From the NCBI RefSeq assembly GCF_038003525.1, contig NZ_JBBOPI010000002.1:62001-126000 (forward strand): 64,000 nucleotides of DNA. Direction: 5' to 3'. The DNA is from Solibacillus sp. FSL H8-0538 (GTDB lineage Bacteria > Bacillota > Bacilli > Bacillales_A > Planococcaceae). Positions 1 to 58,514 of this stretch are shown piece after piece; position 1 is the first letter of the stretch, and each line of letters begins with the position of its first letter. Position numbers and translations under genes: made by a program. The notes beneath the pieces were generated by a model. It saw only the letters and a program-made list of their open reading frames with translations. It made no database searches and was not told the DNA's origin.

Positions 1-495
1 TTATACAACTAACGGGTAGCTTTAGTTCAACAAGGTAAATAAGAAAAGTCGATTCCTAAATGTCATAGGAAATCGATTTTCTTTATGGATTGAAACTGCT
101 TATCGTTGGAATTCCACATTGAACTAAACTTTGATTTGAGAACTAGTGAATAGTTTTTCACCTCTCTTCACCCGCAAGCCCACCAAATTACGGTTTGGTA
201 ATAGGTTCTTCCTCGCGTATATGTATATACGAATATATGAATATATCTAATCATTCAAGACACTTTTTCCTTTTATAAGGCACTACCTGTAGTTAGGGCT
301 AAACGGCTTATTTTAGGGAGTTGTCGAAGAAAAGAATAGAAAAGAATAGCGCAGAAGAATGTTTTTGATGCTTAGAGGAGATCTCTATGCCCATTTACTA
401 TCCCAGCACCAGGAGATTGTTTTGGTTTCATAGGTAGGAAAGTTATCCATTCTTCTCGACCAAAAACGTTTCCATTCTGCGCAAATCGAAATTGC
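1..495. other. Gene-free left edge with repeat remnants
   Basis: I see no convincing coding region here. It holds an imperfect inverted repeat around 7-27 (AACTAA/TTTAGTT), a weak hairpin around 47-80, an array of four 8-bp repeats at 218-249, and a shortened copy of the dispersed element containing AAAACGTTTCCATTCT at about 449-490. The stretch 130-400 resembles the stretch around 50160-50400, so both look like copies of one ancestral plasmid segment. Confidence 0.6.
218..249. repeat. Octamer array A (4 x TATAYNNN)
   Basis: Four consecutive direct 8-bp units: TATATGTA, TATACGAA, TATATGAA, TATATCTA. The first five bases are constant apart from T/C and the last three vary. This is the shortest of the larger arrays and shares flanking sequence with array H (50288-50343). 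It is a candidate binding site for the ribbon-helix-helix partner of ParA. Confidence 0.7.
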
Positions 496-13957: not shown

Positions 13958-14659
13958 TTATTCATTTTTTAACATTCGATAACCCACGCCGATATGTGTT
14001 TGGATATACTTTGGTTGCGTTGAATCTGTTTCGATTTTTTTTCGTAACGTTGCCATAAAGACACGTAAAGAGGCGACATCATTTTCCCACGTACTACCCC
14101 AAATTTCCTTTGTAATGTAGTTATGAGTCAGTACTTTTCCTACATTTTTAGAAAGTAGCACGAGCAGTTTATATTCAATTGGTGTAAGATGCAGTTCCAC
14201 ATCTTTTAAAAAGGCACACCCAGCCACATAATCGATTTTTAAGTCTCCATTTGTAAAGTGAAGGTTTTGTTGTGGACCTTCTGATTGATAATAGTGAATA
14301 CGGCGAATCGCCACTCGTAATCTTGCAAGTAATTCCTCGATTGAAAAGGGCTTCGTCAAATAGTCATCTGCACCAGCATCAAGCGCTTCAATTTTATCTT
14401 GATCCATACTTCGAGCACTTACGACGATAATGGGCATAGTGGACCAAGAACGGATTTTTTTAATAATCTCTATGCCGTCCATATCAGGTAATCCTAAATC
14501 TAAAATAACGATATCAGGATTATGAGAAACCGCTTCTAAAATTGCCTGGCTTCCACGAGATGCAGTATGAAATTTATATTCTTGGGTTTCCAGTGTTATT
14601 GATATAAGATTTTTGATTGCTTCATCATCTTCTACAACTAAGACGAACGGTTTACTCAT
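13958..14659 (-). CDS. kdpE: KdpE response regulator
   Basis: A 233-aa OmpR-type regulator. The receiver domain is residues 5-117, with the acidic pair near VVEDDEA, phospho-acceptor Asp in DIVILDLGLPD and Lys in DDYLTKPF. The winged-helix DNA-binding domain is about 135-231 (LTPIEYKLLVLLSKNVGKV). It pairs with KdpD, overlapping its gene by 8 bases, and activates kdpFABC under potassium limitation. The IS256 remnant begins just past its stop. Confidence 0.95.
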   Translation of the reverse strand: MSKPFVLVVEDDEAIKNLISITLETQEYKFHTASRGSQAILEAVSHNPDIVILDLGLPDMDGIEIIKKIRSWSTMPIIVVSARSMDQDKIEALDAGADDYLTKPFSIEELLARLRVAIRRIHYYQSEGPQQNLHFTNGDLKIDYVAGCAFLKDVELHLTPIEYKLLVLLSKNVGKVLTHNYITKEIWGSTWENDVASLRVFMATLRKKIETDSTQPKYIQTHIGVGYRMLKNE

Positions 14660-17354
14660 AAATTTTCACCTCTTCAGCTTGTAATGTGAATCGGAAAATC
14701 GTTCCTTTTGGATGACGGTCGTGTACTGTTAATGTACCACCATGTGCGGAAATAATCGACTTACATAAAGCTAAACCAATGCCCATACCACGTCTGCTAT
14801 CCGATATACTTTTGTGGGCTGTATAAAACATTTCAAAGAGTTTCTCTTTTACTTCATTTGAAATACCGTCGCCATTATCTGCGATATCAACGATAATCCA
14901 ATCGTTTTCTTTCTTCGTTGAAATCGTAATCTCAGAGCCAACAGATGTATACTTAATCGCATTATCAATCAGGTTAATCAGCACTTGAACAATTAATCGT
15001 AGGTCGAGTTTCGCCATTAAAAAACCTTCTGCACAATCGACTTTCATGATATGCTCACGGCTTTTCCGATTCACGTGGAGAAGCGCTTCATTGATGACCT
15101 CATCAATTAATTCAGCCTCCATTTGGATATTCATCGTACCATCTTCAATTCTTGTAATAGATAGTAAATTTTCAACTAAGTTGATTAACCACTGGGCATC
15201 ATTATAAATATCCTCATATAATCGTATTTTTTTATCTTCGTCTATACTAAATTCGTTATTCAATAAGATATTCGCATTCCCTGAAATCGTAGTCAGTGGG
15301 GAACGCAAATCATGGGAAATGGCACGTAATAAATTGGCTCTTAATTCTTCATTTTTAGCTTGAGTTGCAGCTTCTTCTCGTTTACGTATGAAGTGCTCTT
15401 TTTCTAATGCGAGGGCACATTCCCCAAGCATTGATAAAACTAAATTATTTTCTAATGTATCGAGCGTTTTATTTTGTTTTAGTGCAATGCCAATGACACC
15501 ATACACATCAAGGTTTGTTCGGATAGCTAAGTATAAACATTTCGCACTCCCCAGCGTATTTGTCGTCGCACCGGCATGTTTGTTATTTTTAAATACCCAA
15601 GCAGCAACCGCTTGTTCATTGTCTGTAATGAATTCAGAGCGGTCTGTTGCGTCTTGTTCAAGAAATACGAATGGTTGTGCTAAATTTTGTTCATGGATTG
15701 GGTAGTACACGACGCTATGATTCAGTAATTTGACAAGCTGTTTAGCTGTTGTCGCTAAAATACCTTCTTGATGCGTTTCTTGTTGAAGCAGTTGATTCGT
15801 TTCAAGTAACACTTTTGTTCGGTAAGCCGTTTCCGCTGAATGTTGTGCTTGAATTTTTAATTTACTTGCTAACGTGCCAATAATAAAGGCTGTAATGAAC
15901 ATAATTACAAATGTGACTTGATAGCTCGGTTCATAGGCTGCAAGTGAATAAATCGGATACGTGAAGAAGAAATTGAACGCAATAACACTAAGCGCAGCCA
16001 TTAAAATACTACAAAAGAGATTCGCTGTGATGATTGCCGTGCCGAGTACACCAAGCATATACATATTTATAGTGTTCGTGTTACTAAAATTGAAGGTTTG
16101 GAATACAATGCCGATAGCCGTTGTGATTGCTAATATTAGCGCGACTTTCAGTAAGTCCATTCCACTGCACCATGATGATTTTTTCACAGCCTTTTTCTTT
16201 TTATACGGTTCAGCTTGTTGGTCTGGAATGACGTAGATATCTAGATTTGGTGATAAATTTGTTAGTTGCTCGGTAAACGATTTTTTTATGCGAAGAAAAT
16301 TTCGTTTTGTGTTTGAGCGTCCAATGACTACCTTTGTAACACGCGTATAACGGGCGAACTCGGATATTTGGAAGGCAACATCTTCTCCATAAACTTTCTC
16401 AATATTCGCTCCTAATTGTTCCGCAAGACGCATATTTTTGCGAAGTCTTTCTTTATTTATATCCGACCAATTGTCAAAGGAAGGTGTTTCTACAAACAAG
16501 GCTGTAAAATGCCCCTTAAACGCACTGGTCATTCTCGCAGCTGTTCGGATAATTTTCGTATTTGACGGGGAAGAGGATAGGCAAACTAAAATATGTTCCC
16601 CTGGATTTAAACTGCTTTTCGACGATGATTTACTTTTTTCTGCTACACGATTTACCCGGTCTGCAGTTCGTCTTAGCGCAATTTCCCGTAATGCTACTAA
16701 ATTATCCAAATTGAAAAAGTGATTCATCGCTTTTTCTGCTTGGTCTTGTTTATAAATTTTCCCTTCATTTAGGCGTTCAAGTAAATCTGCAGGCTCAATA
16801 TCAACAAGCGTTACTTGATCGGCTTCATCAAATACATGGTCTGGAATCCGCTCACGTACAACGACACCTGTAATCGATGCGACTAAATCATTCAAACTTT
16901 CGATATGCTGCACATTGATTGTTGTATAAACATCGATACCTGCCTTCAAAAGCTCTTGGATGTCTTGATATCGTTTTAGATGTCTTGCTTGTTCTAAATT
17001 CGTATGGGCAAGCTCATCGACTAAAATTAACTGCGGTTTTCTTAATATAACTGCATCTAAATCAAGTTCATGCAAGATCATGCCTTTATGTTGCACTTTA
17101 AGGGGGGGCAATTGCTCAATCCCTTGTAAAAGCGCCATTGTTTCAGGGCGTGCATGGGGCTCGATATAGCCTGCAACTACATCAACACCGTGTTCTTTTG
17201 CTAAATGAGCTGCTTTTAACATTGCGTACGTTTTACCAACACCAGCTGCATAGCCAAAGAAGATTTTTAAATGACCCTGATATTTTTCTTTTTTGATCAT
17301 TAGTATTCTTTTTAAAATCGCATCAGGATTTTCTCGCTCGAAGCTCATCGTCAT
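14652..17354 (-). CDS. kdpD: KdpD osmosensitive potassium sensor histidine kinase
   Basis: A full-length 900-aa KdpD. Visible in order: KdpD domain with Walker A GYAAGVGKTYAML (about 32-44) and the DELAHTN Walker B region; a universal-stress-protein domain (about 250-375); four membrane segments (about 400-500); a GAF-like region; and the kinase core with H box AISHDLRSPLTTISGN, N box NLIDNAIKYT and G boxes DNGDGI and GMGIGLAL. It phosphorylates KdpE when K+ is scarce. It is transcribed away from kdpFABC across a 253-bp region. Confidence 0.96.
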   Translation of the reverse strand: MTMSFERENPDAILKRILMIKKEKYQGHLKIFFGYAAGVGKTYAMLKAAHLAKEHGVDVVAGYIEPHARPETMALLQGIEQLPPLKVQHKGMILHELDLDAVILRKPQLILVDELAHTNLEQARHLKRYQDIQELLKAGIDVYTTINVQHIESLNDLVASITGVVVRERIPDHVFDEADQVTLVDIEPADLLERLNEGKIYKQDQAEKAMNHFFNLDNLVALREIALRRTADRVNRVAEKSKSSSKSSLNPGEHILVCLSSSPSNTKIIRTAARMTSAFKGHFTALFVETPSFDNWSDINKERLRKNMRLAEQLGANIEKVYGEDVAFQISEFARYTRVTKVVIGRSNTKRNFLRIKKSFTEQLTNLSPNLDIYVIPDQQAEPYKKKKAVKKSSWCSGMDLLKVALILAITTAIGIVFQTFNFSNTNTINMYMLGVLGTAIITANLFCSILMAALSVIAFNFFFTYPIYSLAAYEPSYQVTFVIMFITAFIIGTLASKLKIQAQHSAETAYRTKVLLETNQLLQQETHQEGILATTAKQLVKLLNHSVVYYPIHEQNLAQPFVFLEQDATDRSEFITDNEQAVAAWVFKNNKHAGATTNTLGSAKCLYLAIRTNLDVYGVIGIALKQNKTLDTLENNLVLSMLGECALALEKEHFIRKREEAATQAKNEELRANLLRAISHDLRSPLTTISGNANILLNNEFSIDEDKKIRLYEDIYNDAQWLINLVENLLSITRIEDGTMNIQMEAELIDEVINEALLHVNRKSREHIMKVDCAEGFLMAKLDLRLIVQVLINLIDNAIKYTSVGSEITISTKKENDWIIVDIADNGDGISNEVKEKLFEMFYTAHKSISDSRRGMGIGLALCKSIISAHGGTLTVHDRHPKGTIFRFTLQAEEVKIYE

Positions 17355-17607
17355 CCCTCGTTTTTATTTCAAGATTTTCATTAGCATAACCTAGAAAAAA
17401 TTAATGCAGTATTAGTATATATCTGTCTGACATTAAGATAGTATAAAGATTTTTTTTTATGAATCTACTATTCTATGTTCACTGAAATTTCTACTTCCTT
17501 TTATCCGCTTTTCAAAATCTTAATGCGTTCTTAATTTTAAACGCCTTTTTCCTAACACCGTATTAATTTCGAATTTAGTATTCTTGTATTCGAAGGGAGG
17601 AATGGTG
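17355..17607. promoter_or_regulatory. kdpDE/kdpFABC divergent control region
   Basis: AT-rich divergent promoter region. A direct repeat CTTAAT at 17519-17524 and 17530-17535 has 11-bp spacing, as expected for tandem binding of an OmpR-class dimer such as KdpE. This is inference. I do not see a recognisable c-di-AMP (ydaO) riboswitch in this short leader. Confidence 0.5.
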
Positions 17608-17697
17608 ATGCAAATAGTTTTAAGTGCCATTGGAGTAATAGCTGTTATTTTACTCATTTACTATATGGTGATTTTGCTAAGGGGTGATGAAAGTTGA
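17608..17697 (+). CDS. kdpF: KdpF-like small membrane subunit
   Basis: A 29-aa single-helix peptide (starts MQIVLSAIGVIAVILLI, ends RGDES). GGGAGG sits 7 bases before the ATG at 17608. Its TGA overlaps the kdpA start codon (TGATG). Size, hydrophobic helix and position directly before kdpA fit KdpF, which stabilises the KdpABC complex. It is easily missed because of its length. Confidence 0.88.
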   Translation: MQIVLSAIGVIAVILLIYYMVILLRGDES

Positions 17698-19511
17698 TGA
17701 ACTTAATTTTGCAATGTGGCTTGTATTTAGCCATTCTCGTCTTATTAGCAATCCCTTTAGGACATTATATTGGGAAAGTGATGAACGGAGAGAAAGTATT
17801 TCTATCAAGCTTATTCAAGCCACTCGAACAAGTTATTTATAAAGTGATGAAAATTGAAACTTCAGAGCAAATGTCGTGGAAAAAATACGCAGCCTCTGTT
17901 CTGTTATTTAGTGGTATAGGTTTTATTTTTTTATTCGTACTTCAATTAGTGCAGGGTACATTGTTCGGAAATCCACAAGGCATTGCAAATATGCCTTGGC
18001 ATTTATCGTTCAATAATGCAATTAGCTTTATTACGAATACAAATTGGCAGTCCTACACTGGTGAAGCTCAAATAACGTATTTAGTGCAGGCACTCGGATT
18101 AACTGTTCAAAACTTCGTATCTGCAGCGACCGGGATTGCAGTATTATTTGTACTAATTCGAGGGTTTATCAGTGTGAAAGGTAAAGGGCTCGGCAGTTTT
18201 TGGGTTGACGTCACAAGAGTGAATTTATACGTACTTTTACCAATCAGTTTTATGATCACGCTTGGTTTATTGTCACAAGGTGTCGTGCAAAATCTAAAGC
18301 CTGCAGAAACGGTGCAATTACTCGAGCCGATTGCGATTGCTGAAGATGGAACAATTATTGACTCAGCACAAATTGATGTGGAATCGAAGGAAGTATTTGT
18401 GGATGGGGAATTGGTTACGAATGCACAAATTATTACCGAGCAGTTTGTACCGATGGGACCAGCAGCAAGTCAGATTGCCATAAAACAATTAGGAACAAAT
18501 GGTGGTGGATTCTTTGGCGTAAACTCTGCCCACCCATTCGAAAATCCAACTGCCTTCTCAAATTTGATTGAAATGTTAGCGATTTTATTAATTCCGGTAG
18601 CACTATGTTTTACATTTGGACGAAATATAAGGGATAAAAAGCAAGGCTACGCTATTTTTACAGCGATGTTCATCATGTTAATGCTGGCAATGGCGGCGCT
18701 TACTGTTAATGAACAAATGGGTACACCTCAACTTGCCCAAGACGGAATGGTCGATCTATCCACTAACGAGCAAGCAGGTGGAAATATGGAAGGGAAGGAA
18801 TCTCGTTTTGGAATTGCAGCTTCCACAACGTGGACTGCATTTACAACTGCAGCGTCGAATGGTTCTGTAAATGCGATGCACGATAGTATGACCCCACTTG
18901 GCGGTATGGTGCCAATGCTCTTAATGCAACTCGGGGAAGTAATTTTTGGTGGTGTCGGTAGTGGGCTATACGGTATGTTGTCGTTCGTGATTTTAACCGT
19001 ATTTATTGCTGGGTTAATGGTCGGACGTACTCCTGAATATTTAGGAAAGAAAATCGAACCGTATGAAATGAAATGGGCTGTTCTTTGCTGTTTAGCAACG
19101 CCGATTGCGATTTTAGTAAGTGGTGGTATTGCGGCGATGGTGCCAAGTGTTGCGAATAGTTTAAATGAAGGTGGACCGCATGGTTTCTCAGAATTACTTT
19201 ATGCATTTACTTCAGCAGGGGCAAATAATGGATCAGCCTTTGCAGGATTTGCAGCGAATACACCGTTTATTAACTTGAGTTTAGGTTTAGCAATGGTATT
19301 TGCTCGCTTTGTACCAATCCTTTGTACACTAGCGATCGCAGGAAGTTTGATTAAAAAGAAAACGATGGCGACAACAGCTGGAACACTTTCAACGAGCAAT
19401 GGATTATTTATTTTCTTATTAATTTTTGTTGTCATTTTAGTAGGTGCATTAAGCTTCTTCCCAGCCCTTGCACTAGGACCGATTGCTGAATTTATGATTA
19501 TGGTGAGTTAG
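17697..19511 (+). CDS. kdpA: KdpA potassium-binding/translocating subunit
   Basis: The channel-like subunit of the KdpFABC K+ pump, about 604 aa with multiple membrane helices. All four selectivity-filter regions are recognisable: NTNWQSYTGE, GTNGGGFFGVNSAHPFENP, AASNGSVNAMHDS and SAGANNGSAF. It is longer than E. coli KdpA (557 aa). An extra charged stretch around residues 200-250 (EDGTIIDSAQIDVESKEV and on) lies in an outward-facing loop before the second filter. I prefer ATG 17697 over the upstream TTG because it overlaps the kdpF stop. Confidence 0.95.
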   Translation: MNLILQCGLYLAILVLLAIPLGHYIGKVMNGEKVFLSSLFKPLEQVIYKVMKIETSEQMSWKKYAASVLLFSGIGFIFLFVLQLVQGTLFGNPQGIANMPWHLSFNNAISFITNTNWQSYTGEAQITYLVQALGLTVQNFVSAATGIAVLFVLIRGFISVKGKGLGSFWVDVTRVNLYVLLPISFMITLGLLSQGVVQNLKPAETVQLLEPIAIAEDGTIIDSAQIDVESKEVFVDGELVTNAQIITEQFVPMGPAASQIAIKQLGTNGGGFFGVNSAHPFENPTAFSNLIEMLAILLIPVALCFTFGRNIRDKKQGYAIFTAMFIMLMLAMAALTVNEQMGTPQLAQDGMVDLSTNEQAGGNMEGKESRFGIAASTTWTAFTTAASNGSVNAMHDSMTPLGGMVPMLLMQLGEVIFGGVGSGLYGMLSFVILTVFIAGLMVGRTPEYLGKKIEPYEMKWAVLCCLATPIAILVSGGIAAMVPSVANSLNEGGPHGFSELLYAFTSAGANNGSAFAGFAANTPFINLSLGLAMVFARFVPILCTLAIAGSLIKKKTMATTAGTLSTSNGLFIFLLIFVVILVGALSFFPALALGPIAEFMIMVS

Positions 19512-19523
19512 GAGGTAGTAGAT

Positions 19524-21590
19524 ATGGTGACCGAATCAAAAAGTGCATTAACCGATAAAACGATGCTTATGAGAGCGATAAAAGATTCATTTGTTAAATT
19601 AAGTCCAAAATATCAAGCAGAAAATCCGGTTATGTTACTCGTTTATATTTCGGCAGTTTTAACCTCAGCGTTATTTGCGATTTCGCTGTTTGGCATTCAA
19701 GATGCATCTTCAGGATACACCTTTGCAATTGCAGTGATTTTATGGTTTACAGTCCTTTTTGCGAACTTTGCAGAAGCAATTGCAGAAGGGAAAGGGAAGG
19801 CACAAGCCGATTCTTTACGTGCAGCGAAAAAAGATGTGCCTGCGAACAAGCTTCGAAGTCTTGGTGATTTAGAAGATGTCACGGTTGTTTCATCAGTTAC
19901 CCTTCAAAAAGGCGATCTTGTCATCGTGAAAGCAGGGGAACAAATCCCAGCGGATGGAGAAGTCATTGAAGGAGCTGCGTCTGTTGATGAAAGTGCGATT
20001 ACAGGTGAATCAGCACCAGTCATTCGAGAAAGTGGTGGCGATAGAAGTGCAGTTACAGGTGGAACAACAGTCATTTCAGATGCATTGATTATCCGTGTGA
20101 CGAGCATTCCAGGTGAGAGTTTTCTTGACAAAATGATTGCCATGGTCGAAGGGGCAGCCCGTAAAAAAACGCCAAATGAATTAGCACTGCAAATTTTACT
20201 TGTCGCATTGTCGATCATCTTTATTTTAGTAACGATATCACTCTATACGTTTTCCGCTTTTTCCGCTGATTTGGCTATGATGGAAAATCCGGTATCTGTT
20301 ACAACCCTTGTTGCATTACTTGTCTGCTTAGCACCAACAACGATTGGGGCCTTGTTATCTGCTATTGGAATTGCGGGAATGAGTCGCTTAAATCAAGCAA
20401 ACGTATTGGCAATGAGTGGGCGAGCAATTGAAGCAGCAGGTGATGTAGACATTTTAATGCTTGATAAAACGGGAACTATTACAATCGGAAATCGACAAGC
20501 GACGGAGTTTGTACCGGTTGATGGGGTAACAGCAGAAGAATTAGCTGATGCAGCACAGCTTTCATCTTTAGCTGATGAAACGCCCGAAGGCAGAAGCATC
20601 GTTGTTCTGGCAAAAGAACAGTTCGGTATTCGAGGTCGCTCGTTGAAAGATCAACCATTGAATTTCATTCCGTTTACGGCGAAAACACGCATGAGTGGCG
20701 TCAATTTTGAAGACAACGAAATTCGTAAAGGTGCAGCAGAAGTGATTCGTACGTATGCGGAGCAAAACGGTGGGACGTATAGTAAGCAATGTGAGGAAGC
20801 GGTGAAGCAAATCGCTGAAAAAGGCGGTACACCACTTGTTGTTACGAAAAATCACCGCATATTGGGGGTCATTTACTTAAAGGATATTGTAAAGCAAGGT
20901 GTACAAGAAAAGTTTGCGGACTTACGTAAAATGGGCATCAAAACGATTATGATTACAGGTGATAATCCATTGACTGCAGCAGCGATTGCAGCGGAAGCAG
21001 GCGTTGATGATTTCTTAGCAGAAGCGACACCAGAAGCAAAACTTGAAATGATTCGAGAATTTCAGCGGAAAGGTCACTTAGTGGCGATGACAGGAGACGG
21101 AACAAACGATGCACCAGCCCTTGCCCAAGCAGATGTAGCAGTAGCGATGAATACAGGTACACAAGCAGCTAAAGAAGCAGGTAACATGGTAGATCTAGAT
21201 TCCTCGCCAACGAAATTAATTGAAATTGTTCGTATCGGTAAGCAACTTCTCATGACACGAGGGAGTTTAACAACATTTTCAATTGCGAATGACTTAGCGA
21301 AATACTTTGCGATTATCCCTGCACTATTCATCGGGTTATATCCAGAGCTCAGTAAGTTAAATATTATGCAATTGCATAGTCCAGAAAGTGCAATATTATC
21401 AGCCATTGTTTACAATGCGTTCATCATTATTGCATTAATTCCACTTGCATTAAGTGGTGTAAAATACCGTGAAGTGCCTGCTGGGAAATTGTTATCACGT
21501 AACTTACTTATTTATGGGCTAGGGGGAATTATTACACCATTTATATTTATTAAATTAATTGATATTGTGCTTGTAGCTATGGGCATGTAA
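19524..21590 (+). CDS. kdpB: KdpB P-type ATPase subunit
   Basis: A 688-aa catalytic subunit of the high-affinity K+ pump. P-type ATPase signatures: TGES in the actuator domain (about 157), phosphorylation motif DKTGTIT (about 313), the nucleotide-binding KGA segment, and [15 protein letters not shown] near the hinge. Membrane helices flank these domains as in the family. GGAGG precedes the ATG, 12 bases after the kdpA stop. Length matches known KdpB proteins. Confidence 0.96.
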
Positions 21591-30396: not shown

Positions 30397-30519
30397 TAGG
30401 AAGTATTTTTTAGTCTATCTTACACATTCAAATACATGAAATGAACTTCCTTCTCCATACCCGTTAATAACTTCATGGAGAATAATTTTATCCAAGCCAA
30501 TGCGTTTGCTTATGGGTCC

Positions 30520-30690
30520 TCTTCACATAACAGCATCTTGTCCCCCATCAACGATAGTGCGTGGTAAACACTGTGCTGTTTGTTGTCTTACCAGTGCCCC
30601 CCCTTAAAATTCCCGAACGTTACTATAATCGCTTTTTTGTTTTCTGACACATCTGCTCCCACAATAGTTGAAACTCCATGTTTTTTAATT
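30520..30690 (-). pseudogene. Decayed parA 5' end (copy B)
   Basis: Read on the minus strand it begins like the intact parA: VSENKKAIIVTFGNFKGG and the P-loop GGTGKTTNS. A run of seven G bases shifts the frame, and later lesions remove the rest, although an LLCEEDP segment is still recognisable (LLCDQDP in the intact ParA). It lies directly downstream of the intact octamer array B. Confidence 0.85.
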
Positions 30691-30692
30691 CG

Positions 30693-30748
30693 TATATGGA
30701 TATACAAATATATTCGTATATAGATATATTAATATACGAATATATTAG
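30693..30748. repeat. Octamer array B (7 x TATAYNNN)
   Basis: Seven uninterrupted units: TATATGGA, TATACAAA, TATATTCG, TATATAGA, TATATTAA, TATACGAA, TATATTAG. It occupies the position of the parA promoter region relative to decayed copy B. Every unit keeps TATA plus T/C. Confidence 0.85.
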
Positions 30749-30794
30749 TTCATTGGTTTTCTTTTTTAATAGAAAACCACCCAACAATTATTTA

Positions 30795-31694
30795 TCACTC
30801 CTGAATCATTTCTTTAATAGCTTCAGCTAAGGCATCAGTCGTTCTATAAGACTCCTCCAATGTATTTTCAATTCCCCCAATTTCTAACAATACCGAGTTC
30901 TCTTGAAGATCATGATTATATGTGTTCCGAGGATTTTCACCTTTTCCAATTACACCTCTGGATAATCCAGGATATAATTTCTCTAATTTTTTATGAAGGC
31001 CTATAGCAAAGGCTCTGTTCGCTTCATAATTATCAGTTGTTTTTGATACAACAAATAAAATTTTCGCATAATCTACTCCACCAATTTTTATGGTTGAATC
31101 TGTTCTTTTTTGAGAATCTCTGTGGATGTCAAAAATCATTTTAATGCTCTTATGCTCAGTTAATGATTCTTGTACTATTTCCCTAGAAACTGTATAGGAA
31201 TCGGCAAATGATAAGTTTCGCTCAGTTAAGATACCCAAAATATCCGTATCATCATGGATAGCGTTAATCTTATTTTCCTTTAACGCTTTGCTGAACGCCT
31301 TCCCAACCAAAGTAACATTTTTCGTCTCACTAAATGCTTCTCTAGGATTTTTTATGTTCAGTTCTGGAATATATGATTCTTGATTATGTGAGTGATAAAT
31401 CAACACTAATGGAGCTTTTTCATCAGCAGCGGAAGACACGGACTGGTCTCCATGAGAATTAGTTAGAACATTTGTCATTACCTCTTTTCCACTAAAGAAG
31501 AAGAACCATGAAAAAGCGAGTGTAAAAAGTAGCGCGCCACTTGAAACGGCAGATATTCTATTTACCATCCGTTTTTTATTCATACTTCTTGCCTTTTGTC
31601 TGAGCTTCGTTTCAGTTGATGCAATAAAGTCTTCACTTGGATGTTGAGGATACGTTTCCTTAATCCTATTAAATAGATCTTTTTCATTTTGCAT
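30795..31694 (-). CDS. Membrane-anchored SpoIIP-like amidase, partner of ECF sigma
   Basis: A 299-aa protein. A cytoplasmic N terminus of about 43 residues precedes one transmembrane segment (about 46-68, ISAVSSGALLFTLAFSWFF). The extracytoplasmic SpoIIP-type domain has IYHSHNQESYIPE, FDIHRDS and LLEIGGIENTLEES, with the metal-binding His/Glu residues conserved. It starts 11 bases inside the sigma gene, with AAGGAGG there. The cytoplasmic N terminus in the place of an anti-sigma domain suggests it may regulate the sigma factor. This is inference. Confidence 0.83.
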   Translation of the reverse strand: MQNEKDLFNRIKETYPQHPSEDFIASTETKLRQKARSMNKKRMVNRISAVSSGALLFTLAFSWFFFFSGKEVMTNVLTNSHGDQSVSSAADEKAPLVLIYHSHNQESYIPELNIKNPREAFSETKNVTLVGKAFSKALKENKINAIHDDTDILGILTERNLSFADSYTVSREIVQESLTEHKSIKMIFDIHRDSQKRTDSTIKIGGVDYAKILFVVSKTTDNYEANRAFAIGLHKKLEKLYPGLSRGVIGKGENPRNTYNHDLQENSVLLEIGGIENTLEESYRTTDALAEAIKEMIQE

Positions 31695-32223
31695 TTGTCA
31701 AAGCCTCCTTAGCATCCATACCTAGTTTTCTTTTGAGGTCTTTCAAGGCTCTGTGATAGTCTACTTTCACTTTGGATTCACTACATTGTAGAATTTCAGA
31801 AGTCTCTTTTATCGAAAACTCGTTAATGCCACGAAGGATAACAACCGCTCTATAATTAGGTTTCAATTTAGAAATCGCTTCATGTACAAATTGTTCCATT
31901 TCAGCTGTTTCCAACACTTCATCCGGCTTCTTATCGTTGGATTCTAACTGTGTGAAAAATCCATTCTTAAAAACAGAAATAAACTTCTTTTTTCTATAGT
32001 GATCCACCGCTACATGCTTGGCTATGGAAAATATCCAAGTTTTTAAATTGTTTCCGCTTTTAAAATTGGGTAAGTTTTTTAACACACGAATGAATACTTC
32101 TTGTGTCAAGTCCTCTGCATCATTTTGATTTCCTGAAAAACAAACAAGAAATCTAAACACGTCTAAATAATGATTATTGTAAATTACAACTATACTGGAC
32201 TCTACGTTTTTTAAATCAATCAA
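31684..32223 (-). CDS. ECF-type sigma factor
   Basis: A protein of 179 aa from TTG 32223, which follows AGGGGGG; the ATG at 32238 has no site of its own. Region 2 (DAEDLTQEVFIRVLKNLP, about 45-62) and region 4 (FSIKETSEILQCSESKVKVD, about 140-160) are clear. It resembles SigW/SigV-like ECF factors. Its 3' end overlaps the SpoIIP-like gene by 11 bases, so the two are translationally coupled. Confidence 0.9.
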   Translation of the reverse strand: MIDLKNVESSIVVIYNNHYLDVFRFLVCFSGNQNDAEDLTQEVFIRVLKNLPNFKSGNNLKTWIFSIAKHVAVDHYRKKKFISVFKNGFFTQLESNDKKPDEVLETAEMEQFVHEAISKLKPNYRAVVILRGINEFSIKETSEILQCSESKVKVDYHRALKDLKRKLGMDAKEALTNAK

Positions 32224-32574
32224 GCTGTCCCCCCTCATTGTGTATTCACGTATTATTCGTTTGAGGTAAATAAAAGGTTACAATTATTTCATTTGAAATT
32301 GATCTATGTATACCAATTCTAGTAAATTAGCAATAATTCCTATTTAACATCCGATTTACTAAGGGGTGTACTTGCTATTGGCAAAGGCTTCGAAAACGTA
32401 CCAATCTGAAAAGAAAATGGACGAATTTCCTCTACATACTGAATCTTTTGTTTCCAAAAGTGGAGTAACCTTATACAAAGTTCCATGAAATGAACTTCCT
32501 TCTCCATACCCGTTAATACCTTCATGGAGAATAAATGTATCAAAGCCAATGCGTTTGATATGGGTCCTCTTCAC

Positions 32575-32681
32575 ATAACAGCACCTTGTCCCCCATCAAC
32601 GATAGTGCGTGGCAAGCACCGTGCTGTTTGTTGTCTTACCAGTGATCCCACAATCGTTGAAACGCCATATTTTTCAAGGCG
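32575..32681 (-). pseudogene. Decayed parA 5' end (copy C)
   Basis: Nearly identical to decayed parA copy B but with an internal deletion that removes the first ~18 codons up to the P-loop glycines. KTTNST-coding sequence and the LLCEEDP segment remain. The neighbouring 32488-32575 matches 30433-30520. It lies directly beside array C. Confidence 0.8.
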
Positions 32682-32737
32682 TATATCCATATACCGATAT
32701 ATTCGTATACGGATATATTTATATATGGATATATTTT
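32682..32737. repeat. Octamer array C (7 x TATAYNNN)
   Basis: Seven units: TATATCCA, TATACCGA, TATATTCG, TATACGGA, TATATTTA, TATATGGA, TATATTTT. The 8-bp phase is perfect. The variable bases differ from array B although flanks are homologous, so the TATAY core has been kept while the rest drifted. Confidence 0.85.
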
Positions 32738-32959
32738 TTCGTTTGTTTTCTTGAAATAAGCTGTACCGAGTAGGTGGATACCACGGTCCTCTTTCTCTGC
32801 CTATTCAGCATTGGTCAAACGCTTACCAACCCGATTAAATCGTGAATTCAAGACCGGTGTCACTGGCAACGTCTATGTATCTGTATTACGTATATCCGTT
32901 ACAACAAAACAAACTAGGCGTACGTATCCACTGTGAAGGACAGTGAAACAAATGAAGGA

Positions 32960-36625: not shown

Positions 36626-36702
36626 CCTAACACTTATTTACATAGATTATAGGACTTCCAAAACGTTGATGCAATAGCATTTTTCGCGTTTTCCCGTTCT
36701 CG

Positions 36703-36774
36703 TATATAAATATACGAGTATACTAATAGTTAGTTATATTCGTATTCGCATATATTAATATGTACGTATACGTT
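36703..36774. repeat. Octamer array D (9 units)
   Basis: Nine in-phase 8-bp units, for example TATATAAA, TATACGAG, TATACTAA, TATATTCG, TATATTAA, TATACGTT. Three are degenerate (TAGTTAGT, TATTCGCA, TATGTACG). It lies about 370 bp upstream of primase gene 1. Confidence 0.78.
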
Positions 36775-36812
36775 CTTTAAACGTTCATTTACAGCCATTC
36801 TTGAACGTGAAC

Positions 36813-36884
36813 TATATGTATAAATTGGTATACGGGTATATAGATATAGGCATTTATCTATATACCCATATATCTATATATTTT
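36813..36884. repeat. Octamer array E (9 units)
   Basis: Nine in-phase units, including TATATGTA, TATACGGG, TATATAGA, TATACCCA, TATATCTA and TATATTTT, with TAAATTGG, TATAGGCA and TTTATCTA degenerate. It is separated from array D by 38 bp and is not in the same 8-bp phase, so it is a distinct array. Confidence 0.78.
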
Positions 36885-37334
36885 TGGGGGTAACTTTAGA
36901 TTTTGGGGAAATAGCCGTTCATGAGGGGCTTTTTTTGTCGATTAGAACGGATCTTGACTCAAACTAGTTTCGGCTTTTGTTCGTAGATACGAAGAGATAA
37001 CTTTCATAGCTGCCTAAGTAAGGACCGCATCTCGTACGATTTTGACCGAGATGTGTCTTTCTATTTTTTTCTGCGCAATAATGCCAAAAGAATATACAAC
37101 TCAAAATATGATAGCAAGTGAAGCTAAGTAGCATTAAGAAAAGCCAAAAATATTACGATGGTAGTGAGGAAGAATCGTCGCGTAAGTATCCTCTAACGTT
37201 TGTTTATAACCTGTTTCATCATCGTTTCTCCCTTAGATAAAAGTTCATTTTCTTTCTTCCTCATTCCCCTACTCCTTCTACCAGCTGGACCCCAAACGTT
37301 CATGTAGCAGGGTTTTCATTCTAGACATCCAAGA

Positions 37335-37374
37335 TATACGGGTATATCCGTATATGCATATACCTATATACTTT
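37335..37374. repeat. Octamer array F (5 x TATAYNNN)
   Basis: Five perfect units: TATACGGG, TATATCCG, TATATGCA, TATACCTA, TATACTTT. It is the third array in the non-coding stretch between primase gene 1 and the SDR gene. Confidence 0.82.
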
Positions 37375-44412: not shown

Positions 44413-44796
44413 TTAGCGATCTCGCTTTTGAATGATTTCGAGAACGAGATGAAAGGTTTTCTTTTCGTCATTTACGAGGCTGGATTCAATGTACTCGTCT
44501 AAGAGGATATCGATTAAGTTGTCGACATTATCGGCTTTACCTAGTTGAATAAGGGCATTTAGTTTATTACGTGTTGCTTTGGTTACGCGAACGCTTGTGA
44601 TTTGGGCTGCATCGCGTTTTTTTGATGCCTTTTCTTCAACGATTGGTGGTGCCGGTGTTGGTTGTGGTTCTTGAACAGGGGCTTCTGCTACTGGTTCGTC
44701 TGTTAGCTCTAGCTTGAACTCTTGTGCTGGCACAATTTTAGGGCCTCGATTGAGTAGCTTCTTTTTCGGATTTCCATTGTTTAATAGATTACTCAT
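44413..44796 (-). CDS. Ribbon-helix-helix partition partner (ParB-like, DUF5388 type)
   Basis: A 127-aa protein. A disordered proline/glutamate-rich N-terminal half (PQPTPAPPIVEEK) precedes a ribbon-helix-helix module: strand ITSVRVTK followed by helices TRNKLNALIQLG and NVDNLIDILLDEYI. It begins 3 bases after parA. Small RHH proteins that follow a ParA act as centromere-binding proteins and repressors of the operon. The octamer arrays next to the parA promoter are its probable targets. The N-terminal arm could stimulate ParA. Confidence 0.83.
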   Translation of the reverse strand: MSNLLNNGNPKKKLLNRGPKIVPAQEFKLELTDEPVAEAPVQEPQPTPAPPIVEEKASKKRDAAQITSVRVTKATRNKLNALIQLGKADNVDNLIDILLDEYIESSLVNDEKKTFHLVLEIIQKRDR

Positions 44797-44799
44797 TTG

Positions 44800-45627
44800 T
44801 TATACCTCCACGAGCTCGGCTTGGACACGCTTAATGAATTCTTCTGCAATCGTTTCGTAGCTCTTGTGTACTTTCCGGTCATGCATATCGATATTTGTGA
44901 TACCTGTGATGTCGAAGCGTTTTAAGCGTTCCATGTTCGTCACGACGTTATCAAATAAGTTCTCGGCACCAAAAATATCGCGTGCACTTTCCAATGTGGC
45001 TAAATCGACCGCAGCACCATTTTTCAGGAGCACCGGTAATATGCCGACGATATCTAAATCTGCACCGTAATCGTCAATAAGTGATTGCAGATAGCCCGTA
45101 AAGACCTCGGCCCCTTGTAAACTGCGCTCTTGTGTTTGCAGGACGACCACCACGAAATCAGATGCATAAAGCGCTGCATCCGTAATAATCGAGATGGTTG
45201 GCGGTACATCGATAAAGATGAAGTCATAATCTTTTTTTATTGGTTCGATTAACGTAGAGAAGTATTGAACGCGCGCTGTCGTGTCATTCGGAAACTTCTT
45301 TTCTAAGAAACGAGGATAGAGTGCGAAATCGCTGAAACTTGGTAGCAAGTACAGGTTTTCTTTTACCTCGGTCACGATTTGTGCGAGGTTCTCCTCTTGG
45401 ATCGCAGCCATTAACGTTTTATTGAATGTAACAATTTCATCTGACACAAGCGTTTTCGTTTTCAGGTACAGGGATGTCGCGTTCGCTTGCGGGTCTTGGT
45501 CACATAACAGCACCTTATATCCTTTCAGGGCTAATGCGTGCGCGATCATGGTGCTGTTCGTCGTCTTGCCTGTCCCACCTTTAAAATTACCAAACGTTAC
45601 GATAATTGCTTCTTTGTCTTTTGACAC
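44800..45627 (-). CDS. parA: ParA-family partition ATPase
   Basis: A protein of 275 aa from GTG 45627, which has GGGGGAG upstream; the frame to 45645 includes that site. Deviant Walker A FKGGTGKTTNS (about 12-22), LLCDQDPQANAT switch region and Walker B DFIFIDVPPTIS. No N-terminal DNA-binding domain, so type Ib. It partitions plasmid copies with the adjacent RHH protein. Arrays G1 and G2 lie upstream. Two decayed copies of its 5' end occur at 30520-30690 and 32575-32681. Confidence 0.93.
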   Translation of the reverse strand: MSKDKEAIIVTFGNFKGGTGKTTNSTMIAHALALKGYKVLLCDQDPQANATSLYLKTKTLVSDEIVTFNKTLMAAIQEENLAQIVTEVKENLYLLPSFSDFALYPRFLEKKFPNDTTARVQYFSTLIEPIKKDYDFIFIDVPPTISIITDAALYASDFVVVVLQTQERSLQGAEVFTGYLQSLIDDYGADLDIVGILPVLLKNGAAVDLATLESARDIFGAENLFDNVVTNMERLKRFDITGITNIDMHDRKVHKSYETIAEEFIKRVQAELVEV

Positions 45628-45670
45628 GTCTTCTCCCCCAATCATTGGAATGAAATGTTTTCTCCAAACA

Positions 45671-45686
45671 TATATGTATATATTTT
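45671..45686. repeat. Octamer array G1 (2 units) at parA promoter
   Basis: TATATGTA and TATATTTT, 44 bases upstream of the parA start codon. It is the shortest array and in the position of an operator. Confidence 0.55.
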
Positions 45687-45770
45687 AGCTGAGAGTTTTT
45701 TGAATTACAAGGGGACGGAGGATTTATTTGGGATTGGTGGGAGCAGGTTCGAACGGTGGTCTTAATTACA

Positions 45771-45810
45771 TATATGCATATACTAATAAATTCGTATATG
45801 CATATATCAA
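45771..45810. repeat. Octamer array G2 (5 units) upstream of parA
   Basis: TATATGCA, TATACTAA, TAAATTCG, TATATGCA, TATATCAA in perfect 8-bp phase, about 145 bp upstream of the parA start. It is the most likely native centromere of the partition operon. Confidence 0.8.
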
Positions 45811-45878
45811 CTTCTGAAAATAATAAAAAAGCAATTAATGACGACGACTTTTACTAGTCTGGCTCATTAATTGCGGCT

Positions 45879-48800
45879 GATGTTCTACTCTGTACAATTA
45901 CATTGGGCTAAAACAAATCCATATCTTGCGTTTTCTTCACAGGTATTTTACTACTCTCTAAAATTACATTGGTCTAAAACAGAAATTCACAATGCACTGT
46001 ATGATACTGAGTTTTACTACTCTCTAAAATTACATTGGTCTAAAACTCAAAACTGATTTCTTGGCCCAATTCGTTTGTTTTACTACTCTCTAAAATTACA
46101 TTGGTCTAAAACTAGTGATTTCGTTCAGCACTTTCAGCTTCAGTTTTACTACTCTCTAAAATTACATTGGTCTAAAACTTGTATCTGTCTTTTGCCTTTA
46201 AAACACTCGTTTTACTACTCTCTAAAATTACATTGGTCTAAAACAGAAGAATATCATCCTCGGTACAAATTGGTGTTTTACTACTCTCTAAAATTACATT
46301 GGTCTAAAACTGCTGCACAAAATCAATTTTAGTTAATTTGGTTTTACTACTCTCTAAAATTACATTGGTCTAAAACATTGGGGGCAAGGTAGACGTCAAA
46401 GGTTGGGTTTTACTACTCTCTAAAATTACATTGGTCTAAAACAAGAAATTACTCTAGATACTTTAATAGATTGTTTTACTACTCTCTAAAATTACATTGG
46501 TCTAAAACCTACATCAACTGTGGAGGACATCGCACAATGTTTTACTACTCTCTAAAATTACATTGGTCTAAAACTTACAAAATAAAATTGTAGATCTATC
46601 TACTGTTTTACTACTCTCTAAAATTACATTGGTCTAAAACTACTTAGTAGACAATATGCCATCATTTTTAGTTTTACTACTCTCTAAAATTACATTGGTC
46701 TAAAACATAACACAACACGACATTCTGAACCCATTAGTTTTACTACTCTCTAAAATTACATTGGTCTAAAACCTTTCGTTTTTACAAAACGATAAACCTC
46801 TTGTTTTACTACTCTCTAAAATTACATTGGTCTAAAACTCACCGTCAGTATCAGGTTTTGTTGGATCTGTTTTACTACTCTCTAAAATTACATTGGTCTA
46901 AAACAAAGTCGCGGATATTTCGACGAACGACAAAGTTTTACTACTCTCTAAAATTACATTGGTCTAAAACAGTAGTTCCTGCATTGTAGCCATATCGCAA
47001 GTTTTACTACTCTCTAAAATTACATTGGTCTAAAACTTGGTGATTGATGTCATGGTTCCTTCTAGGGTTTTACTACTCTCTAAAATTACATTGGTCTAAA
47101 ACGACAAGTCTAAGAGTTTTAACGACATATTAGTTTTACTACTCTCTAAAATTACATTGGTCTAAAACTCCCCTACCGTAGCAGGAGACAAAATCCATGT
47201 TTTACTACTCTCTAAAATTACATTGGTCTAAAACACATATGCCGCTTCTGCAACAGCAGGAACCGTTTTACTACTCTCTAAAATTACATTGGTCTAAAAC
47301 TGTAACCGAGAAGGGGAACTAGCAGAGCCTGGTTTTACTACTCTCTAAAATTACATTGGTCTAAAACCATGCTCAAACCTTAACTGCAACAAGAAGCGTT
47401 TTACTACTCTCTAAAATTACATTGGTCTAAAACATGTAATGACCGAGTTCATGAGCAGCATAGGTTTTACTACTCTCTAAAATTACATTGGTCTAAAACC
47501 ATGCTCAAACCTTAACTGCAACAAGAAGCGTTTTACTACTCTCTAAAATTACATTGGTCTAAAACATGTAATGACCGAGTTCATGAGCAGCATAGGTTTT
47601 ACTACTCTCTAAAATTACATTGGTCTAAAACGTAATGTCTTTAAATGCACCACCGCCTGCGGTTTTACTACTCTCTAAAATTACATTGGTCTAAAACGTA
47701 CAAGTTCCGGTATCGGTTTTATCGTCGGTTTTACTACTCTCTAAAATTACATTGGTCTAAAACCACGGGAATGGTTGCCGTTGCGATCAATGCGTTTTAC
47801 TACTCTCTAAAATTACATTGGTCTAAAACACACGCACAGGCTGGTCTGCATACATCCTAGTTTTACTACTCTCTAAAATTACATTGGTCTAAAACGATGC
47901 TTCAATTCGTTTTACCCGTTCTTCTGTTTTACTACTCTCTAAAATTACATTGGTCTAAAACAGCTCAAGTTGCAGAAGTTATTGAAAGAGTGTTTTACTA
48001 CTCTCTAAAATTACATTGGTCTAAAACAAAAGATGGTGATTGGATTATGAAAACTCAGTTTTACTACTCTCTAAAATTACATTGGTCTAAAACTGGATGT
48101 ATCTATTAAGCTACCTTCGGGCAGTTTTACTACTCTCTAAAATTACATTGGTCTAAAACTTTACGATTCGCTCTGTAGTTCCAGTTATTGTTTTACTACT
48201 CTCTAAAATTACATTGGTCTAAAACCATGGATAGGGGGAAAGTGCCTAATAGCAAGTTTTACTACTCTCTAAAATTACATTGGTCTAAAACAAGTCAGCC
48301 ATTTAAACTTATCAATTCCTAGTTTTACTACTCTCTAAAATTACATTGGTCTAAAACTGCAAACAACTATTAAGACAGTTGTTGATGGTTTTACTACTCT
48401 CTAAAATTACATTGGTCTAAAACTTGCAATTCGCTTTTCCTGCTGCTGCTAACGTTTTACTACTCTCTAAAATTACATTGGTCTAAAACCCTTGCGAATT
48501 GACAGTCGACGAATATGCAGTTTTACTACTCTCTAAAATTACATTGGTCTAAAACAACGAGTGACAATTATTCAACGATGTTGAAGTTTTACTACTCTCT
48601 AAAATTACATTGGTCTAAAACCACCAAGTGGATAAGAGTTTGGCCACTTTCGTTTTACTACTCTCTAAAATTACATTGGTCTAAAACATTGGCTACGGAC
48701 GTTATCGTACCATCGACGTTTTACTACTCTCTAAAATTACATTGGTCTAAAACTTGACGAATGGCAGCAGTCATTAAACCGCCGTTTTACTACTCTCTAA

Positions 48801-49017
48801 AATTACATTGGTCTAAAACTCAATTGAAGTTAAACCACCAGAAGTTCAAGTTTTACTACTCTCTAAAATTACATTGGTCTAAAACAGACTTACAAACTAG
48901 CATCCGCTATTTTCGGTTTTACTACTCTCTAAAATTACATTGGTCTAAAACACGTCCCGCTTCATCAATTAGAACAACGCAGTTTTACTACTCTCTAAAA
49001 TTACATTGGTCTAAAAC
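45879..49017 (-). CRISPR. CRISPR array, 48 repeats, type II-A-like, no cas genes intact
   Basis: Forty-eight 36-bp repeats and 47 spacers of 30 bp (one of 31 bp, at 47301). On the minus strand the repeat begins GTTTTAGACCAATG and ends GAGTAGTAAAAC. This resembles Listeria/Streptococcus type II-A repeats (GTTTTAGA start, AAAAC end). Direction: the most degenerate repeat (45879-45914, six differences) lies at the left. At the right end the DNA reads ATTTGAG directly before the first repeat on the minus strand, the known leader-end motif of type II-A arrays. Two adjacent spacers (47368-47463) are repeated at 47500-47595. No cas9, cas1 or cas2 is in the window. Confidence 0.97.
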
Positions 49018-50069: not shown

Positions 50070-50287
50070 CTAGAGGACCATTGAAATAGAAACAGTAGAA
50101 AAGTTTAGAAAAGAACAGCGAAGTTTTGCGCAGGATGGCATAGAGTAGAGTAGAATTGGAAAGACATGCGTTGAAGGGAACATTTCAACAACCGAAAAAT
50201 CCGATCCTTTGCCCCAACTTCAACTTGAAACAACCCTCTCTTCACCTGCACTCCCATCAAAAAACGGTATAATCCTGGTTTTTTATG

Positions 50288-50343
50288 TATATGCGCATAC
50301 GGATATACTGATATATTCGTATATGGATATATGAATATACCCA
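50288..50343. repeat. Octamer array H (7 units)
   Basis: TATATGCG, CATACGGA, TATACTGA, TATATTCG, TATATGGA, TATATGAA, TATACCCA in perfect 8-bp phase. Flanks on both sides resemble those of array A. Confidence 0.83.
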
Positions 50344-56960: not shown

Positions 56961-58514
56961 TTAACCTGATGCTTCAAAGGATTGGTCGATGGGTATTCGG
57001 TCAGTTGGCTGAAAGATGAGCTGATCTACGTACGTCATTAATTTTTCGTACCCACCAACCTGTTCGAGCTCTTCTGTCCACTCCTGAATCATTTGGAGCA
57101 GCTGACGACGGTAATTCGCTTTTGACGCTTGTAACAACTGCATCGCATGCTGAATAAACAGGTGAACGGTTGTCCAGCCTGTTTTTGCGTTCCGTCCCTT
57201 ACCGGTAACGGTCTTTAGTAGTTTCGTAGAAGATTTGAGTACCTGGTTCAATGTACTTTGTGGAATCCCGATTGCTTCACATATTTCTTTTTGCGTACGC
57301 CAAATAAACGGTTCAGAAGGGTTATTTTCTGCCGTGATGTACGCGATGATGTCTTGTTCCCATTCGTCGTAATGACTTCGTGTACGGTCTTCTCTGTCCT
57401 TTTTAAACTTATACCAGACATGTCTCCCTGTATTTACTGGAATAGACTGGCCATTCGATACATGTAGGGCTAATAATGCCTCAATGTATTCTTTACTTGC
57501 CCCTTTGTACTTCCCAGAATACGCCGAATTCAGTATGCTGTGGATCGTCGCGCCTGTTAACGGGTAACGTAGGCGGTAATTGTACTCGTCAATAAAGTCC
57601 AATGTGCGGGACTTGTCCCACCCTTCACTAAAGCAAACGAGCGCGAGCGTAAAGAGCGTATTATTCCGTCCGATTTGCCCTTTCTGTCCTTTTACATCAA
57701 CGGCATGTACTAATGCTTGGAACCACTCTGAATCTAGCACAGAAGCTTTTGATAGTTTTGTAGGGACGACAAATAACGGTCGCTCGATGTTGTCATCAGA
57801 GCGAGTGGACCAATTGATGAATTCTGCCATGCTATATGTATTCGTTACTTGCGCAAACACGATATTCGCGGCCTTTGGTAAACGGAAGAAGCCAAAGTCA
57901 TTACAAAACAGATCGGCATCGACGTCTTTCAAACTTCTTTTTAGATTATCAGCGATTCGTTTTGCGACAGCTAATCCACGAAAATCGTTTTTATTTGAGA
58001 TAAATAGTGGCTGCTTTAACGTAAAGTACACCTGGTAGCCACGGTCTGAAGCGACAATTAACGTTGGTAGACCGATCGAGTGGTCCATACACGTGAGTAC
58101 AATCTCTTGTACCGTGTGCTTTTTTGTATCAATATCGACCACGAACGTGTTAATTTGCAGAAGGTTACGCTCCTCAAAGCCACGTATCATGCGCCTTGCA
58201 TCATCAGCGTATCCATACTGACGGTACACATTTGGTGTAAAATGCGTTAAGCCCGGTGCATCTTCAAGTAATGTTTCTTTGGACGTCACAATGTAGCCCT
58301 TTACGCCCGTTGTGTGGAAGTCTGCTTTTGAACGCACGACAAAGACAGCCCCCTTCTTCGAGCGCGCATCGATTTTCGCTGCCTCTATTCGTTTCGGAAG
58401 GGGCGCATTGGAGTATTTGGTTTTATAGGTAGTCAGCCCCTCATGTAAGATCACATCATAGACCTGTGCGAGATTTACGAGTACTGGTTCATCTTGAACT
58501 GCTGCTTGTGCCAT
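56961..58514 (-). CDS. Plasmid replication primase (AEP-like with PriCT_1), copy 2
   Basis: A 517-aa paralogue of the protein at 34781-36331, alignable over nearly its whole length. FVVDIDTKKHT supplies the D-x-D metal site, followed by SDRGYQVYFTL, a PriCT_1 domain (IGRNNTLFTLALVCFSEG) and a C-terminal winged-helix-like region (EICEAIGIPQSTLNQVL). GAGGTG precedes the ATG and overlaps a TGAACCA iteron core. It is divergent from the initiator gene across the iteron origin. It probably primes plasmid DNA synthesis. Confidence 0.87.
   Translation of the reverse strand: MAQAAVQDEPVLVNLAQVYDVILHEGLTTYKTKYSNAPLPKRIEAAKIDARSKKGAVFVVRSKADFHTTGVKGYIVTSKETLLEDAPGLTHFTPNVYRQYGYADDARRMIRGFEERNLLQINTFVVDIDTKKHTVQEIVLTCMDHSIGLPTLIVASDRGYQVYFTLKQPLFISNKNDFRGLAVAKRIADNLKRSLKDVDADLFCNDFGFFRLPKAANIVFAQVTNTYSMAEFINWSTRSDDNIERPLFVVPTKLSKASVLDSEWFQALVHAVDVKGQKGQIGRNNTLFTLALVCFSEGWDKSRTLDFIDEYNYRLRYPLTGATIHSILNSAYSGKYKGASKEYIEALLALHVSNGQSIPVNTGRHVWYKFKKDREDRTRSHYDEWEQDIIAYITAENNPSEPFIWRTQKEICEAIGIPQSTLNQVLKSSTKLLKTVTGKGRNAKTGWTTVHLFIQHAMQLLQASKANYRRQLLQMIQEWTEELEQVGGYEKLMTYVDQLIFQPTDRIPIDQSFEASG

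Follow-up and report, generated by a model that had tools for sequence, protein, structure and literature searches.

In this study, the 64,000-nucleotide stretch of Solibacillus sp. FSL H8-0538 that was analysed (the window; bases 62001-126000 of contig NZ_JBBOPI010000002.1, here C2, a ~192-kb plasmid of 191,584 bases in a two-contig genome of 3.93 Mb) was found to carry dispersed tandem arrays of the octamer RTATAYNN, which are probably the parS centromeres of a delta/omega-like partition system formed by a ParA and a ribbon-helix-helix protein of the DUF5388 family. Exact runs of three units occur on the plasmid only, such arrays stand beside parA and parB in relatives, the TATA core is kept in duplicated arrays, and the arrays at the par operon (the home arrays) are worn while those elsewhere are intact. 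In such a system, dimers of the single DUF5388 protein would bind the hexamers cooperatively, several dispersed arrays would load this ParB and engage ParA on the nucleoid, and arrays beside dead parA fragments would have persisted because they remain functional with the intact parAB.

The array unit is a palindromic hexamer, RTATAY, with two free bases at an 8-bp period, and owing to the palindrome both strands match. An earlier note, made from the sequence of this stretch by itself, had described a TATAY core with three variable bases; the core is indeed kept, but only two bases of the unit are free. Exact three-unit RTATAY matches number 22 in the whole genome, all of them on C2 (1 in the reversed control) and none on the other contig of 3.7 Mb. 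A graded score, applied to C2, gave nine arrays, compared with 0 per C2 length in 20 third-order simulations, and 20 first-order Markov simulations of the window produced no run of at least three TATAY units. All nine arrays lie outside open reading frames (ORFs) of at least 120 aa, a position with a frequency of 0.35 for a random 50-base stretch. They start at 62217, 92692, 94681, 98702, 98812, 99334, 107770, 112287 and 140767 of C2, that is, at 217, 30692, 32681, 36702, 36812, 37334, 45770 and 50287 of the window, with the ninth (C2 140767) past its end. In window coordinates, and with no strand assigned, the arrays and one related pair of units are as follows.

217..246: orphan array of 4 units, all perfect, with the 3' ends of two ORFs on either side
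30692..30745: orphan array of copy 1, 7 perfect RTATAY units at 8-bp period
32681..32734: orphan array of copy 2, 7 perfect RTATAY units
36702..36771: block 1 downstream at the home locus, 5 of its 9 units perfect and at most 3 of them in a row
36812..36881: block 2 downstream at the home locus, likewise with 5 of 9 units perfect and at most 3 in a row
37334..37371: additional array ~450 bp past block 2, all 5 units perfect
45671..45684: operator-like pair of two RTATAY-type units just upstream of parA, present in aligned relatives too
45770..45807: home array upstream of parA, 5 units of which the middle one is broken, leaving at most 2 perfect units in a row
50287..50340: orphan array in which 6 of 7 units are perfect, 5 of them in a row

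The division into home arrays and arrays elsewhere is our own, based on synteny with relatives, and array 37334, classed as elsewhere, could belong to the home block. Arrays 217 and 50287 have homologous flanks on both sides. Next to the orphan arrays other than those of copies 1 and 2, no parA, parB or rep remnants were found. Among 261 genomes of the family, 4 (including its own) matched the 50287 locus, the other 3 mainly at the array stretch.

The genes of the putative partition system and the two replication proteins of the plasmid are the following.

44800..45645, minus strand: intact parA, 281 aa; AAA_31, E 1.7e-39; nearest solved chain Orf delta' (2oze), E 7.4e-35
44413..44796, minus strand: intact parB-like gene, 127 aa, DUF5388, predicted ribbon-helix-helix
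34781..36430, minus strand: first PriCT_1 replication protein, with 74% identity to its L. contaminans counterpart and of the type found after the double array in relatives
56961..58514, minus strand: second PriCT_1 replication protein, sharing 55% identity with the first and closest to those of genome G154 and L. antri, with no RTATAY array nearby

The parA is the sole AAA_31 match on C2, with 9 others (one below the cut-off) on the other contig, and its product is a short Walker-type ParA as in delta/omega-like systems. The DUF5388 gene is the only match in the genome above the family cut-off, with one sub-cut-off match on the other contig. Residues 65-126 of its structural model found their best match in the Protein Data Bank in Reg576 (6gyg; Z 8.2, root-mean-square deviation 2.9, 61 aligned), followed by ParD2 (Z 4.8) and NikR (Z 4.1); the mean predicted local distance difference test score was 70 for the whole model and ~85-90 in residues 71-120. 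The protein is thus predicted to have a ribbon-helix-helix fold, as would befit the small partner encoded beside parA. Contiguous short repeats also stand beside the operon as in delta/omega-like systems, but they are worn, with a longest perfect run of 3, or of 5 once array 37334 is included.

Many relatives share the order array, parA, parB, double array and PriCT_1 gene. Here, the double array and the first PriCT_1 gene lie ~7 kb from parB, from which it follows that the block has been split, and the second PriCT_1 gene, which is nearest to another relative lineage, suggests that the plasmid has the merged history of two related plasmids. A splitting of the home upstream array by an insertion was also considered and dropped, since the gap is there in relatives too. 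Window 58700-58971, upstream of the second PriCT_1 gene, contains tandem repeats with periods of 19 and 28, which are possible iterons.

An unbiased scan for 8-bp periodicity in 11 other complete plasmids with this ParA (a near-duplicate twelfth was excluded) found arrays within ~0.9 kb of parA in 10 of them and no peak in the L. plantarum plasmid. Elsewhere, the only peaks were one in pEspB (~15 kb off), one in P. lenghuensis, which was of low complexity, and three in pLIS35, which had a different word. In a graded RTATAY scan of the same 11 plasmids, distant segments appeared in just two, pEspB (9039-9076) and P. lenghuensis (12805-12826). Positions 2140-3789 of pLIS35 (NZ_MZ127844.1) hold period-8 arrays of the TTATCT type far from parA, perhaps those of a second partition system. 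As judged from aligned sequences, the array word appears mostly to follow one residue of the DUF5388 strand: in the 11 rows with Ser before V-R-V there are no RTAGAY/RTCTAY units in runs of at least 4, in the 13 rows with Thr such units are always present, and the fit is broken by Brochothrix and Vagococcus, 2 of the 26 rows, whose words are different. On the ParA tree (23 rows), the Ser/Thr label changes twice, and S. faecavium, nested among Ser rows, has switched both residue and word. That the arrays are instead replication iterons bound by the PriCT_1 protein seems highly improbable: while the double array stands just upstream of PriCT_1 in many relatives, the arrays of P. lenghuensis, Carnobacterium, Vagococcus and Brochothrix lie at parA with no PriCT_1 gene annotated within the few kb shown, the second PriCT_1 gene here has no array nearby, and the array words mostly follow DUF5388.

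A role as operators, with DUF5388 repressing nearby genes through dispersed arrays as omega does at its promoters, also seems very unlikely. The two-unit pair kept just upstream of parA would fit such a role, and omega sites are described as overlapping promoters (PMC4498918). However, no off-home array comes closer than 270 bp to the start of an ORF of at least 120 aa (shorter ORFs uncounted), array 217 sits between two gene ends, and promoter-like sites around copies 1 and 2 are not in excess (10 vs 11.0 in shuffles).

Two of the orphan arrays are attached to remnants of parA, arranged as follows.

30501..30668, minus strand: 5' part of parA in copy 1, roughly codons 1-56 (58% identity over aa 4-56 by tblastn; placed by alignment and reading frames)
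30435..30500, minus strand: fused 3' end of a methyltransferase-like gene, copy 1, 4/66 differences from copy 2
32550..32657, minus strand: parA 5' fragment of copy 2, ~59 bases deleted over the P-loop start
32484..32549, minus strand: methyltransferase-like 3' end of copy 2, junction identical in position to that of copy 1

The earlier note had taken 30433-30750 and 32488-32740 for homologous duplicates, each pairing a decayed parA 5' end with a perfect seven-unit array, and this description was borne out in its coordinates and in the homology (~94% identity in the dead part), in the decay (a frameshift in the C/G run at 30597-30603 of copy 1, and the loss from copy 2 of ~59 bases covering the first P-loop codons, with ParA homology at residues 25-52 in two frames) and in the arrays (7/7 units in each). 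In both copies the parA homology ends at about codon 56, at a common junction with the 3' end of another gene, which looks like a methyltransferase C-terminus, the name being read from the peptide. A third copy of this tail is present at C2:30733-30817, and the tail is found in relatives too. The common junction indicates that parA was cut before the duplication, so that one chimera was made and then duplicated, and the frameshift and the deletion arose in an already dead fragment. Alignment with the intact parA region (45500-45830), as the note had advised, confirmed homology, but at only ~74-75% DNA identity, so the copies are not recent derivatives of the intact parA; against relatives, the truncated parA reached ~70-75% identity over most of its length, which does not settle its lineage. 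Related plasmids with orthologues of both loci were sought, in vain: among the 261 family genomes, 26 (own included) matched the tail, parA starts or arrays, with none of the matches listed spanning tail and parA, and a search of the plasmid set for orthologues of the locus returned 2 records, of which one matched the genes lying between copies 1 and 2 and the other parA, but no orthologue. Between the two directly oriented chimeras, window 30795-32238 carries plasmid-borne genes for an extracytoplasmic function (ECF) sigma factor and a SpoIIP-like protein.

Between copies 1 and 2, changes were found at 0/28 TATA positions, 2/14 R and Y positions, 8/14 free bases, 9/51 near-flank positions and 9/161 dead coding positions, and TATA differed from the free bases with p=2.5e-5. 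Arrays 217 and 50287 gave 0/16 for TATA, 4/8 for R and Y, 3/6 for free bases and 16/64 for flanks. With both duplicated pairs pooled, TATA was changed at 0/44 positions, free bases at 11/20 and near flanks at 25/115 (TATA vs free bases, p=2.3e-7; TATA vs near flanks, p=1.7e-4). The proposal of the note that selection acts on the arrays rather than on parA is therefore favoured by these sequence comparisons as far as the core and the free bases go, while the dead coding part that it had chosen as the yardstick failed to show a slower core. Arrays beside intact parA in relatives show similar contrasts: TATA 1/120 and free bases 6/56 in pLIS35 vs G149, with parA third codon positions at 13/265; TATA 2/36 and free bases 11/16 in one block of L. 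contaminans vs G042. The contrast is weaker in three Exiguobacterium plasmid pairs (TATA 2 to 7/108, free bases 5 or 6/50), in which free-base changes fall below those at parA third codon positions (44 to 73/283).

The same figures bear on the explanation that the off-home arrays are passive relics, debris of duplications and of the merger of two related plasmids, too young for decay and with no present role. The two PriCT_1 genes are nearest to two different relative lineages, the dead coding part is only 5.6% diverged and the hexamer is not slower, and the common junction shows mere duplication. On the other hand, 11/20 free bases and 25/115 near-flank positions have changed in the two duplicated pairs against 0/44 TATA positions, and the off-home arrays are better kept than those of the live locus, so we consider this explanation rather unlikely. 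Recombination without site-by-site selection, in which units or whole arrays are swapped among the arrays of the plasmid so that the core is kept and the free bases are scrambled, would account for the free bases having changed more than the near flanks (p=0.005), for unit numbers that vary even between the near-identical systems of pLIS35 and G149 (8 vs 10 upstream of parA), and for the 4 units of array 217 against 7 in its partner 50287. However, it requires intact donors and hence selection somewhere, and it should have repaired the home arrays as well, yet they are worn, which leaves it quite improbable. Divergence is also uneven along the chimera, lower in its left part than in the part by the array (9/161 vs 9/51, p=0.017), and the copies may thus be mosaic.

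The wear of the home arrays is a further line of evidence for the reading of the arrays as centromeres. Perfect units make up 4/5, 5/9 and 5/9 of the home arrays, with longest runs of 2, 3 and 3, compared with 4/4, 7/7, 7/7, 5/5, 6/7 and 5/6 elsewhere, with longest runs of 4, 7, 7, 5, 5 and 4. The home total of 14/23 differs from 34/36 elsewhere (p=0.002) and from 71/77 in L. contaminans, G042 and G154 (p=0.0009), and even the arrays beside dead parA (14/14) are more intact than those of the live operon (14/23; p=0.007). In each of eight relatives whose words are purely RTATAY, one home array or more reaches a run of at least 4. For pSM19035, at least 4 contiguous heptads are described as needed for full ParA stimulation (PMC9499535), and by this measure the strong centromeres would now be the off-home arrays and not those at the par operon, a weaker step than the assignment of the arrays to parS. 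With home arrays worn and scattered ones intact, the centromere may have moved: parS function would be gone from the par operon, whose arrays lack four contiguous intact units, to dispersed satellites under one parAB, two of them riding on the dead parA chimera. Such a relocation is conceivable, though we hold it as doubtful.

Several points weigh against selected, dispersed centromeres or against their relocation. The earlier note had expected the core to change more slowly than the dead coding part, but on the one pair of copies the hexamer (2/42) does not differ from it (9/161; p=1.0), nor is TATA by itself slower (p=0.36), a comparison that is weak because the dead part has diverged so little (5.6%). 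Taken on this single pair, the refuting condition set by the note would count against its proposal. Within the plasmid, the test of selection has just two duplicated pairs, and unit exchange could keep the TATA core. With array 37334 assigned to the home group, perfect units compare as 19/28 vs 29/31, a weaker contrast (p=0.018), and the longest home run becomes 5. The extents of the off-home arrays were defined from the intact runs they contain, a procedure that works in their favour; among their 12 immediate flanking units, 0 have one mismatch and 2 have two. Worn home arrays are not unique to this plasmid, as those of a draft Caryophanon latum genome have runs of 3, 3 and 2, with one array, of run 4, on another contig beside a PriCT_1 gene; this may be a second such case, or three units may suffice. 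The four-repeat rule derives from a heptad system. As for the relatives, the period-8 scan is not sensitive, recovering only 4/9 of the C2 arrays at its threshold, and the graded scan sees RTATAY words only, so that other plasmids could have satellites that escaped both; the concordance of residue and word is post hoc, includes near-duplicates and rests on 2 changes.

Other features of the plasmid include a second dispersed repeat confined to it, the 10-bp direct repeats TAGAAAAGAA, at the following positions.

Window 327 and 10453: 10-bp direct repeats TAGAAAAGAA
C2 2343, 5195, 7598, 58795, 141125, 147287, 158896 and 185190: the same repeats

With at most 1 mismatch, TAGAAAAGAATAGAAAAG has 13 matches, all on C2 and none on the other contig, with 0 for the reversed control. 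Between the home array and the 50287 array, window 45946-49023 holds an array of clustered regularly interspaced short palindromic repeats (CRISPR) with 46 exact copies of a 36-bp repeat. C2 showed no Cas9-sized gene, its three ATG-started ORFs of at least 700 aa encoding KdpD, an AcrB-family and an S-layer-type protein; cas genes were not sought on the other contig. At window 50544, GTTTTAGACCAA, a single copy on C2 in its orientation, corresponds to the beginning of the reversed CRISPR repeat and is a possible anti-repeat of a trans-activating CRISPR RNA. Potassium-uptake genes occupy window 14652-21590, with KdpD and KdpA recognised by Pfam and an E1-E2 ATPase taken as KdpB by context.

The system is likely a dispersed-parS variant of the delta/omega-like class. 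The RepB/RepC system of the Gram-positive plasmid pAD1 combines a ParA-like protein and a small partner with arrays of the 8-bp repeat TAGTARRR, a word other than the RTATAYNN of this plasmid. The plasmid pAMI4 is an alphaproteobacterial repABC plasmid with a different kind of ParB. In Exiguobacterium pEspB (NC_010608.1), too, ParA is paired with DUF5388, arrays stand at the operon and another lies ~15 kb away, but its home arrays are long (13 and 14 units), its satellite is single and its words mix RTATAY and RTAGAY. The ParA-DUF5388 locus of Caryophanon latum shares RTATAY arrays with home runs that never exceed 3, and has additional arrays both on its own contig and on others, while its draft genome is fragmented and no dead parA copy was seen in it. 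The inc18 plasmid pSM19035 is described as having a delta-type ParA, a small ribbon-helix-helix ParB and contiguous short repeats at several sites (PMC4498918, PMC9499535), namely six parS sites (PMC4498918). In contrast, the repeats here are 8-bp octamers with a palindromic RTATAY and not 7-bp heptads, DUF5388 replaces omega, the layout is array, parA, parB, double array and PriCT, and intact arrays are dispersed over tens of kb, two of them on dead parA. Centromere sites away from the par operon are also described for pAMI4, whose remote 3parS locus, 11.5 kb from the operon, is reported as essential for partition (PMC9040568), but its sites are not tandem octamers. Several parS per plasmid (pSM19035, PMC4498918) and a remote essential parS cluster (pAMI4, PMC9040568) are thus already known from these accounts, while the combination of a ribbon-helix-helix DUF5388 system with worn home and intact dispersed arrays, two on a dead parA chimera, looks new. 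A literature search on DUF5388, Reg576 and TAGTARRR found no paper in the library searched, and one on multiple or dispersed parS with ribbon-helix-helix proteins showed none recognisable as dealing with this class among the papers listed.

The number of parS arrays, their distance from parAB and their evolution matter most for systems with a ribbon-helix-helix ParB, which is described as unable to spread (PMC9499535). The plasmid offers a natural test, in which worn home arrays stand against intact, graded arrays of 4, 4, 5, 5, 7 and 7 contiguous units under one parAB, and the concordance of Ser/Thr with TATA/TAGA provides a one-residue specificity hypothesis for DUF5388, a family that Pfam lists as 'of unknown function'.

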